Both the position numbers and the translations under genes were made by a program. This document shows, piece by piece, positions 14,635-17,672 of a stretch of DNA of 40,327 nt (the first letter of the stretch is position 1; every line of letters starts with the position of its first letter). This DNA comes from Atopostipes sp. (GTDB taxonomy: Bacteria; Bacillota; Bacilli; Lactobacillales; Carnobacteriaceae_A), in assembly GCA_029257245.1 (NCBI GenBank), contig JARICH010000103.1:1-40327 (forward strand). Direction: 5' to 3'. Below the pieces are notes generated by a model that was not told the DNA's origin, did not search any database, and saw nothing but the letters and a program-made list of their open reading frames with translations.

Positions 14635-15705
14635 ATGGATATTTTTGAACAGCTTGAACATGTAGATCTACGTTATAAAGAAATTAATTCCATGTTAAGT
14701 GATCCTGAAATAACAAAAGATACCAATAAATTGACCGCATTAAGTAAAGAAGAGGGCGAGTTAAGAGAAACCGTCCAAGAATTTCAAAAGTTAAAAGAAG
14801 TAACTAAAGAATTACAAGATATTGAAGAAATGCTGAATGAATCGTTGGATCCAGAAATGAAAGAATTAGCTGAAATGGAACAAGAAGAAATGGCTGCTGA
14901 GAAAGAAGCACTCGAAGAAAAGCTAAAATTACTTCTCATTCCTAAAGATGAAAATGATGGGAAAAATATCATCATGGAAATTCGGGGAGCAGCAGGCGGA
15001 GATGAAGCCCAATTATTCGCGGGTGATTTATTCCATATGTACCAAAAATATGCCGATCATCAAGGCTGGAAAACAGAAATACTTGAGGCAAGCTCAACCA
15101 GTATTGGAGACTTTAAAGAAATTATCTTGTCCATTAGTGGGAAAGACGTCTATTCAAAATTAAAATTTGAAAGTGGTGCCCACCGGGTACAGAGAATTCC
15201 AGAAACTGAATCGCAAGGACGAGTTCATACATCGACAGCGACTGTAGTTGCTTTACCAGAAGTCGAAGAGGTCGAAGTAAATATTGATCCCTCGGATATT
15301 CGTGTGGATATTTATCGAGCGAGTGGAGCCGGTGGACAGCACGTTAACATGACCGACTCGGCTGTTCGTTTAACACACGAACCGACTGGTATTATAGTTG
15401 CCATGCAAGACGAACGTTCACAACTTAAAAACCGAGAAAAAGCAATGAAAGTTCTTCGTTCCCGTGTATATGATTATTATGAACGAGCAGCCCAAGCCGA
15501 GGTCGATGCCGAAAGAAAATCAACGATTGGAACAGGAGATCGTTCAGAACGCATTCGAACCTATAATTATCCACAAGGAAGAGTAACGGACCACCGTATT
15601 AATTTAACGGTCCATAAGCTTGAGCAAGTGTTGGATGGAGACTTAGACGAGATTATCGAAGAACTCTCTCTTCAAAGTCAGGTTGAACGACTTGAGGGAC
15701 TGTAA
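14635..15705 (+). CDS. prfA: Peptide chain release factor 1
   Basis: [21 protein letters not shown] contains the GGQ motif; [18 protein letters not shown]; adjacent to prmC. Confidence 0.97.
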
Positions 15706-15706
15706 A

Positions 15707-16561
15707 ATGTTTCAATTAGGAAAAGAAAAAGTCACTTACTTTGAAGTCCTCAAAAGGGCTTCTTCTTTTTTGACTAAAAAGGGCGAATCAGCTTTTGTTG
15801 CGGAATGGCTCATGAGAGAAAGGCTATCCTGGACAAAGACTGATTTAGTAAGACACTATTCACTCATTATGCCTCGAAAAGAAATAGAAACTTTCCAAGT
15901 GGATATTCAGCAATTTACAAAAGGAAAACCGATGCAACAAATTATTGGTCATGATTGGTTTTATAATCGAAAGTTCAGCGTGACAGAAGATACTTTAATT
16001 CCCAGACCCGAGACAGAAGAATGGATGGATCGATTACTAAAAAGCTTACCAAATCGGCCATTAAAAGTATTAGATATCGGGACTGGAACGGGTGTACTAG
16101 CCATCACGCAGAAATTAGAGCGACCCGAAGATGAAGTGACAGCAGTGGACATTAGTAGAAAAGCTTTAGCAGTAGCTAAAAAGAATGGTGAAAATCTGCA
16201 AGCTCAAATCAATTGGATAGAAAGTGATCTCTTTGAAGAATTAACAGGACAAAGATTTGATTTAATCCTTTCCAATCCCCCCTACATCAGTCAAGATGAA
16301 ATCGGCTTAATGGATCAGTCGGTCTTGGACTATGAGCCAAAAGAGGCTCTGTTTGCTGAAAACGAGGGCTTAGCCATTTATGAAAGACTAGCGGAAAATA
16401 TTAGTCAATACTTAAATAAAGAGTTTATGATAGCCTTAGAAATTGGTTATGCACAGGGTGAAGCAGTCACTAAACTATTTAAAGAGCATTTACCAGCAGG
16501 AAAGTTGGAAATATGGCAAGATTTCAGTGGATTAGACCGTTTAGTGTGGATTAAGTCCTGA
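15707..16561 (+). CDS. prmC: Release factor glutamine N5-methyltransferase
   Basis: LIPRPETEEWMD, VLDIGTGTGVLAI, DLILSNPPYIS (NPPY motif). ATG at 15707 is preferred over the TTG at 15683 in the ORF track. Confidence 0.94.
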   Translation: MFQLGKEKVTYFEVLKRASSFLTKKGESAFVAEWLMRERLSWTKTDLVRHYSLIMPRKEIETFQVDIQQFTKGKPMQQIIGHDWFYNRKFSVTEDTLIPRPETEEWMDRLLKSLPNRPLKVLDIGTGTGVLAITQKLERPEDEVTAVDISRKALAVAKKNGENLQAQINWIESDLFEELTGQRFDLILSNPPYISQDEIGLMDQSVLDYEPKEALFAENEGLAIYERLAENISQYLNKEFMIALEIGYAQGEAVTKLFKEHLPAGKLEIWQDFSGLDRLVWIKS

Positions 16562-16563
16562 AC

Positions 16564-16655
16564 TGTGGATAAAGCCTGTGGACAAGTGTGGATAACTAAA
16601 GAAATTGTTGATTTTATGGCAAATTAATTGGGGATAGAGCAAATACTTATGCACA
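16564..16655. promoter_or_regulatory. DnaA-box cluster in the prmC-sua5 intergenic region
   Basis: TGTGGATAA at 16564-16572 and 16587-16595 (minus-strand TTATCCACA, perfect); TGTGGACAA at 16577-16585 (one mismatch); TTATGCACA at 16647-16655 (fits TTATNCACA). Confidence 0.75.
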
Positions 16656-16691
16656 GGCCGGTGGAAAAGATAGAATAAAGGAGTAAGATGG

Positions 16692-17672
16692 ATGAAAACA
16701 GAACATTTTTATGAAGACCAGATCGAACAAGCTGCGAAATTAATTCAAGAGGGTAAGACTGTCGCATTTCCAACGGATACTGTTTATGGTTTAGGAGCCG
16801 ATGCAAGAAATGAAGAAGCAGTTCAGAAAATTTTCACTGCTAAAAGCAGGCCAGCTGATCGAGCACTGACTATCTTACTCTCTGATAAAGAAATGATTAA
16901 TCAATACGCCAAAAACATACCAAAAGAGGCATTCTTATTAGTTAATCATTTTTGGCCCGGACCTTTAACTATCGTGTTAGAAGCTAAAGATAATTTAGCA
17001 CCTGCAGTGACGGCTGGCTTAAAGACAATTGGGATGCGGATGCCGGCTGATCCCATTGCCTTAAAATTTATTGAAACTTGTGGTATTCCACTAGCCACAC
17101 CAAGTGCGAATCTAAGTGGTCGTCCGAGTCCGACGACAGCTGAACATGTATTAGTAGATTTAGAGGGAAAGATAGCGGGAATAATCGATGGTGGTGAAAC
17201 GGATTCAGGAATTGAATCGACTGTCTTGGATTTATCAAATCCAGAGAAGCCAATCATTTTAAGACCAGGTGCCATCACCAAAGGTCAAATTGAGAGATTA
17301 CTTGCTAAAAAAGTCATAACAAATGAAAAAAAAAGCACTAACAAAAAAGAAGAAAAACATTATCAACCCCTAATCCCTATTTATCTGGTACAATCGGATT
17401 GGCCAGAAGCTTTCGAACAAATGAAAGAAGAGAAAGTTGCTTTGTTAGCTAGTGAAGAAGTAATTGAAAAATATGGTAAAGTGGCGATAGATAGCTATTC
17501 CCTTGGGAAAAAAAAGGCGATAAAAGAAGCACAGAAATCATTTTTTAAAGCCATTCGTATACTTGAAAAATCAGAGGCAACAGTGATTTTAGTCGAACTT
17601 TATCCAGAGAATGAAGCAAGTGCAGCCTATCTTAACCGTTTGGAAAAAGCAGCGGCTGGCAAAATAATCTAA
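16692..17672 (+). CDS. sua5: L-threonylcarbamoyladenylate synthase (Sua5/YciO/YrdC)
   Basis: GKTVAFPTDTVYGLGADARNEEAVQKIFTAKSRPADRALTILL; SANLSGRPSPTTAEHV; ESTVLDLS...ILRPGAIT; C-terminal Sua5 domain. Confidence 0.94.
   Translation: MKTEHFYEDQIEQAAKLIQEGKTVAFPTDTVYGLGADARNEEAVQKIFTAKSRPADRALTILLSDKEMINQYAKNIPKEAFLLVNHFWPGPLTIVLEAKDNLAPAVTAGLKTIGMRMPADPIALKFIETCGIPLATPSANLSGRPSPTTAEHVLVDLEGKIAGIIDGGETDSGIESTVLDLSNPEKPIILRPGAITKGQIERLLAKKVITNEKKSTNKKEEKHYQPLIPIYLVQSDWPEAFEQMKEEKVALLASEEVIEKYGKVAIDSYSLGKKKAIKEAQKSFFKAIRILEKSEATVILVELYPENEASAAYLNRLEKAAAGKII

Follow-up and report, generated by a model that had tools for sequence, protein, structure and literature searches.

A cluster of DnaA boxes between prmC and sua5 in Atopostipes, a probable counterpart of the Bacillus subtilis ywlC cluster

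Results

DnaA boxes in the prmC-sua5 gap

The window, a 40,327-nt stretch of an Atopostipes sp. genome, carries the gene series tdk, prfA, prmC, sua5 and upp, which was confirmed in our analysis. Intergenic and directly upstream of sua5, a tRNA-modification gene and the ortholog of B. subtilis ywlC, lie three exact boxes (TTATNCACA) for DnaA, the initiator of chromosome replication, and one box with a single mismatch, together spanning 92 nt (Table 1). A first-pass annotation, made from the sequence alone, had reported four such 9-mers in a gap of 130 nt, with three of them packed into 32 nt at spacings of 13 and 10 nt. All four were found where it had placed them, and the packing of the three minus-strand boxes was borne out. 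Its list had omitted a degenerate box in the gap (16629), two boxes within prmC (16545 and 16447) and one inside prfA. The last of these, an exact TTATCCACA on the plus strand at 15567-15575, lies about 1 kb ahead of the cluster. Exact matches to TTATNCACA number five in the whole window, every one of them within 15567-16655.

Table 1. Genes and DnaA boxes at the prmC-sua5 locus (positions in the window)
Feature	Position	Strand	Remarks
prmC, upstream neighbour	15707..16561	+	TIGR03534, E 1.3e-78
DnaA box TTATGCACA	16447..16455	+	outlying, within prmC
DnaA-like box TAATCCACA	16545..16553	-	within the end of prmC
prmC-sua5 intergenic region with the cluster	16562..16691	.	130 nt
DnaA box TTATCCACA	16564..16572	-	exact; position kept in congeners G016 and G018
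DnaA box TTGTCCACA	16577..16585	-	one mismatch; 13 nt past the preceding minus box
DnaA box TTATCCACA	16587..16595	-	exact; 10 nt on; spacing equal in G016 and G018
Degenerate box CTATCCCCA	16629..16637	-	two mismatches; 42 nt on
DnaA box TTATGCACA	16647..16655	+	exact; 18 nt on
sua5/tsaC (ywlC ortholog), L-threonylcarbamoyladenylate synthase	16692..17672	+	TIGR00057, E 1.3e-63; start codon ATG; putative regulated gene

The 130-nt gap was also searched for other signals. No consensus promoter was recognised and no terminator was found, an Rfam search of the gap returned no match, and its fold z-score was -0.65. Readings of the gap as a terminator, promoter or RNA element were therefore dropped.

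Rarity of the cluster in the genome

The assembly that was searched comprises 1.26 Mb in 120 contigs and is 71% complete. It contains 70 exact TTATNCACA sites, compared with 33 for the reversed control pattern. The densest exact group is the one at prmC-sua5, with four sites in 209 nt; at the observed rate, the expectation of such a group is about 4e-6 per genome. Other groups are three exact sites in 98 nt on contig C78, and three in 196 nt upstream of dnaA on a contig that starts only 275 nt ahead of the first of these three boxes. The group on C78 (3458-3555; L364 2459-2556) lies over the start of a gene for a putative exporter of aromatic acids, assigned by PF06081/PF11728, and the contig ends shortly past it.

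None of 3000 dinucleotide shuffles of the gap contained four boxes or three exact ones. One-mismatch sites were not enriched over the whole window (55, compared with 47 +/- 7 expected), and the unusual feature is therefore their clustering. Thus several consensus boxes lie within about 300 nt, more than chance would provide. The first-pass annotation had judged a chance occurrence unlikely, and both the shuffles and the ranking within the 1.26-Mb assembly agree with it. A genome scan for similar clusters, which had been set beforehand as a test, found them to be rare elsewhere in the genome.

Absence of dnaA, dnaN and oriC from the vicinity had also been noted, correctly: none is present in the window, and dnaA (C55:610-1902), with its own boxes beside it, lies on the same contig as oriC, C55. 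The cluster resembles the oriC of the dnaA-dnaN region in being a group of DnaA boxes, but an identity with oriC was rejected because neither dnaA nor dnaN is adjacent to it or present in the window.

Conservation within the genus and family

The Sua5 proteins of two congeners (G016 and G018) are 54-56% identical to that of the window, and the box series -13-10-42-17/18+ is common to all three genomes. At the spacing of the 16577-16585 box, G018 has TTGTCCACA and G016 has TTATCCACA. Both congeners carry TTATTCACA at the distance of the degenerate box. The last step of the series is 17 nt in the congeners, where it leads to CTATCCACA, and 18 nt in the window, where it starts from a fourth box that has degenerated into CTATCCCCA and leads to TTATGCACA. 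Among the boxes listed for the congeners, none matches the prmC site at 16447-16455. When the gaps of the genus are aligned, conservation is highest over the three-box block. The boxes are thus kept in close relatives at nearly identical spacing, an outcome on which the earlier proposal had been made to depend. The common series is the strongest evidence that selection acts on the boxes themselves.

Within the family, the genera g1, g4, g6 and g8 each have at least two exact boxes at this place, and g7 has a weaker set. The cluster is absent from g2, g9 and g3, whose gaps are shorter than 45 nt, and the 175-nt gap of g5 contains a single one-mismatch site. Relatives thus carry a cluster at the same place, except for many genera in which the gap is short. 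As so many relatives live without it, the cluster is dispensable.

Occurrence and geometry across Bacilli

Conservation was then assessed in 193 loci from 123 genera, sampled evenly over groups and then for breadth over genera, and the proportions describe this sample rather than the class. In the 400 nt preceding sua5, exact TTATNCACA reached a density of 3.03/kb and seven scrambled control patterns gave 0-0.06/kb; the remainder of these loci had exact boxes at 0.38/kb. At least two exact boxes were present in these 400 nt in 44 of the 123 sampled genera, compared with 1 of 492 background windows. The presence of a cluster varied with gap length, from 53 of 90 loci at gaps of at least 110 nt to 4 of 74 at gaps below 60 nt. 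Carriers included Enterococcus cecorum, Lysinibacillus sphaericus, Mesobacillus foraminis, Kurthia gibsonii and Virgibacillus halodenitrificans. No cluster was seen in the named Clostridia of the sample, and our claim is confined to Bacilli.

The commonest pair combines a plus box with a minus box 12 nt further on and was found in 31 genera of 18 families. A four-box register, + 12 + 21/22 + 12 -, was shared by 19 loci, which represent 14 genera and 9 families; 3860 shuffles did not produce it once. It occurs in G021, from a sister genus in the window's own family, and in G452, which we take to be B. subtilis on the strength of a 100% match to the YwlC sequence; a register match to B. subtilis is a criterion of the present analysis, not a published one. 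The register is absent from all three genomes of the window's genus (G000, G016 and G018). We read this as an ancestral cluster that was probably rebuilt in the genus, and an independent gain there is conceivable. Since the B. subtilis core register is absent from the genus, the case for orthology is built on position, boxes and neighbours, and not on one arrangement. In three relatives with single-contig genomes (G081, G101 and G019) the distance between the site and dnaA is 0.13-0.19 of the genome length; the window's own assembly is divided among its 120 contigs.

The suggestion that the locus is a conserved site of DnaA titration or regulation is therefore supported, subject to two corrections. 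Its place is kept in many Bacilli and its spacing within the genus, but the B. subtilis arrangement is not found in the genus, and many Lactobacillales with short gaps have no cluster.

A separate observation concerns the first codons of sua5, which in many loci outside the Lactobacillales (for example L237, L242 and L341) contain minus-strand boxes, often 12 nt apart. These could reflect selection as boxes or be a by-product of the encoded residues.

A second cluster before rlmH

A second DnaA-box cluster was found in the htrA-rlmH gap of the same genome (C72:1060-1333; L365). It is also present in congener G018, at about 46120-46440 of contig C27 (L369), some 29 kb from dnaA. RlmH is the YydA of B. 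subtilis. Thirty genomes were examined for this site; most had been selected because they carry the sua5 cluster, and the overall rate of 28/30 is therefore biased. At least two exact boxes occurred in the 450 nt before rlmH in 24 of the 30, the cluster was displaced upstream by about 0.5-1.4 kb in four more, and none was found in the remaining two. The region upstream of yydA is another known DnaA site of B. subtilis (PMC4447404).

Discussion

Region 6 of B. subtilis, which lies upstream of ywlC, contains nine boxes, binds ATP-DnaA with a Kd of ~0.25 uM and is among the strongest DnaA-binding regions of that organism (PMC4447404). The first-pass annotation had pointed to such a cluster near ywlC, and the literature confirms it (PMC4447404). 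DnaA represses ywlC, and expression from PywlC-lacZ falls as DnaA rises (PMC12112137; PMC8203912). Deletion of six clusters leads to early initiation, strongly so only when all are removed (PMC5295017; PMC13220808), and the phenotype is partly reversed by re-adding one cluster (PMC5295017). As a sink, each cluster acts jointly with the others against early initiation, although reviews disagree on the weight of the clusters for initiation (PMC5295017).

The cluster described here resembles that of ywlC in lying directly upstream of the orthologous gene and in packing several TTATNCACA boxes, of an identical class and facing either way, into about 150 nt. It differs in spacing (-13-10-42-18+ here, +12+21+12- in B. 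subtilis), in its upstream neighbour (prmC here, ywlB there) and in having fewer boxes, which are predicted DnaA sites. The ywlC cluster is reportedly among those of Okumura et al. 2012. The yydA (rlmH) cluster, region 8 of B. subtilis (PMC4447404), likewise lies outside oriC and before an RNA-modification gene, but it is a separate site at a different gene. In E. coli, datA, DARS1 and DARS2 likewise tune DnaA by means of intergenic box clusters away from oriC; they are not homologous in place to the present site, and they work through accessory proteins on the nucleotide state of DnaA.

The box-binding DNA-binding domain of DnaA is characterised by the motif DHTTV. This motif is retained in the DnaA of the window's genome, and recognition of TTATNCACA is therefore to be expected. 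By extension from B. subtilis, we hold with high confidence that the prmC-sua5 cluster is a functional DnaA-binding element. Very probably it is the ortholog of the extra-oriC cluster known before ywlC and would serve in this lineage, as there, both to repress sua5 and to act as a small sink for DnaA. DnaA would bind the packed minus-strand boxes at 16564-16595 and, using the further boxes up to 16655 as well, would assemble into a small complex ahead of sua5. High levels of free DnaA would then lower sua5 transcription, and the cluster would also act as a minor sink for DnaA. Regulation of sua5, taken by itself, is likely on the B. subtilis precedent; as the gap has no recognised sua5 promoter, the proposed repression has no mapped target. 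It is doubtful that the single prmC-sua5 site has a measurable effect on initiation.

Other readings divide the two proposed roles or deny both. The cluster could be a purely local operator, at which DnaA does nothing but repress sua5 and so couples t6A synthesis to replication status, sequestration being irrelevant; we give this not quite an even chance. The cluster stands immediately upstream of sua5, ywlC of B. subtilis is repressed by DnaA (PMC4447404; PMC12112137), and the site is mostly absent at short gaps, where sua5 probably shares the prmC transcript. However, the early initiation that follows the six-cluster deletion in B. subtilis is partly reversed by one cluster (PMC5295017), so that sequestration can matter collectively. 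That same phenotype (PMC5295017) favours a site used mainly for titration or as a landmark, with sua5 a convenient neighbour whose transcription is hardly affected. So does a distance of 10-19% of the genome from dnaA in relatives, a range that includes B. subtilis, since the site would be duplicated fairly early in the cycle. We nevertheless consider a mainly titrating role improbable, because few boxes hold few DnaA molecules, because the absence of the cluster accompanies the absence of a gap before sua5, and because different orders keep it in the same place with respect to sua5.

It is very improbable that the boxes arose by chance, or that they are the decayed remains of a site and now serve no function in this lineage. 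The failure of the genus to retain the B. subtilis register and the many relatives that live without a cluster would fit such an origin, but the shuffles and the genome ranking exclude chance, and the box spacing is kept in three diverged species though the surrounding gap has changed. Scarcely credible is an RNA element of sua5, whether leader, terminator or riboswitch, that incidentally holds TGTGGATAA repeats. The inverted box pairs of other genera could form short hairpins, but the fold score and the terminator and Rfam searches of the gap give it no support, and boxes occur in both orientations, with three direct repeats in a row in this genus.

Clusters of DnaA boxes outside oriC have been described mainly for B. 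subtilis, and their importance is debated. We found no class-wide description of the clusters reported here in the open-access literature, a scope that does not take in Okumura et al. 2012. Their recurrence before the same two genes across Bacilli, the common spacing rule in several families and the natural absences suggest, as a pattern in sequence, that the sua5 and rlmH clusters are under selection. We think it probable that the cluster described here genuinely ties sua5 to replication control, and has done so for a long time. A wider reading, which we put forward tentatively and as somewhat less probable than not, is that the Bacilli inherited vertically, from an ancestor, a set of DnaA control sites outside oriC that includes at least those of sua5 and rlmH. 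The conserved > 12 > 21/22 > 12 < geometry at sua5 would build a defined DnaA complex; the sites would couple genes of RNA modification and translation to replication status and act jointly on initiation; and they would have been repeatedly lost or rebuilt in particular lineages, as in this genus. Recurrence across Bacilli makes it testable whether such clusters are local operators, DnaA sinks or both.
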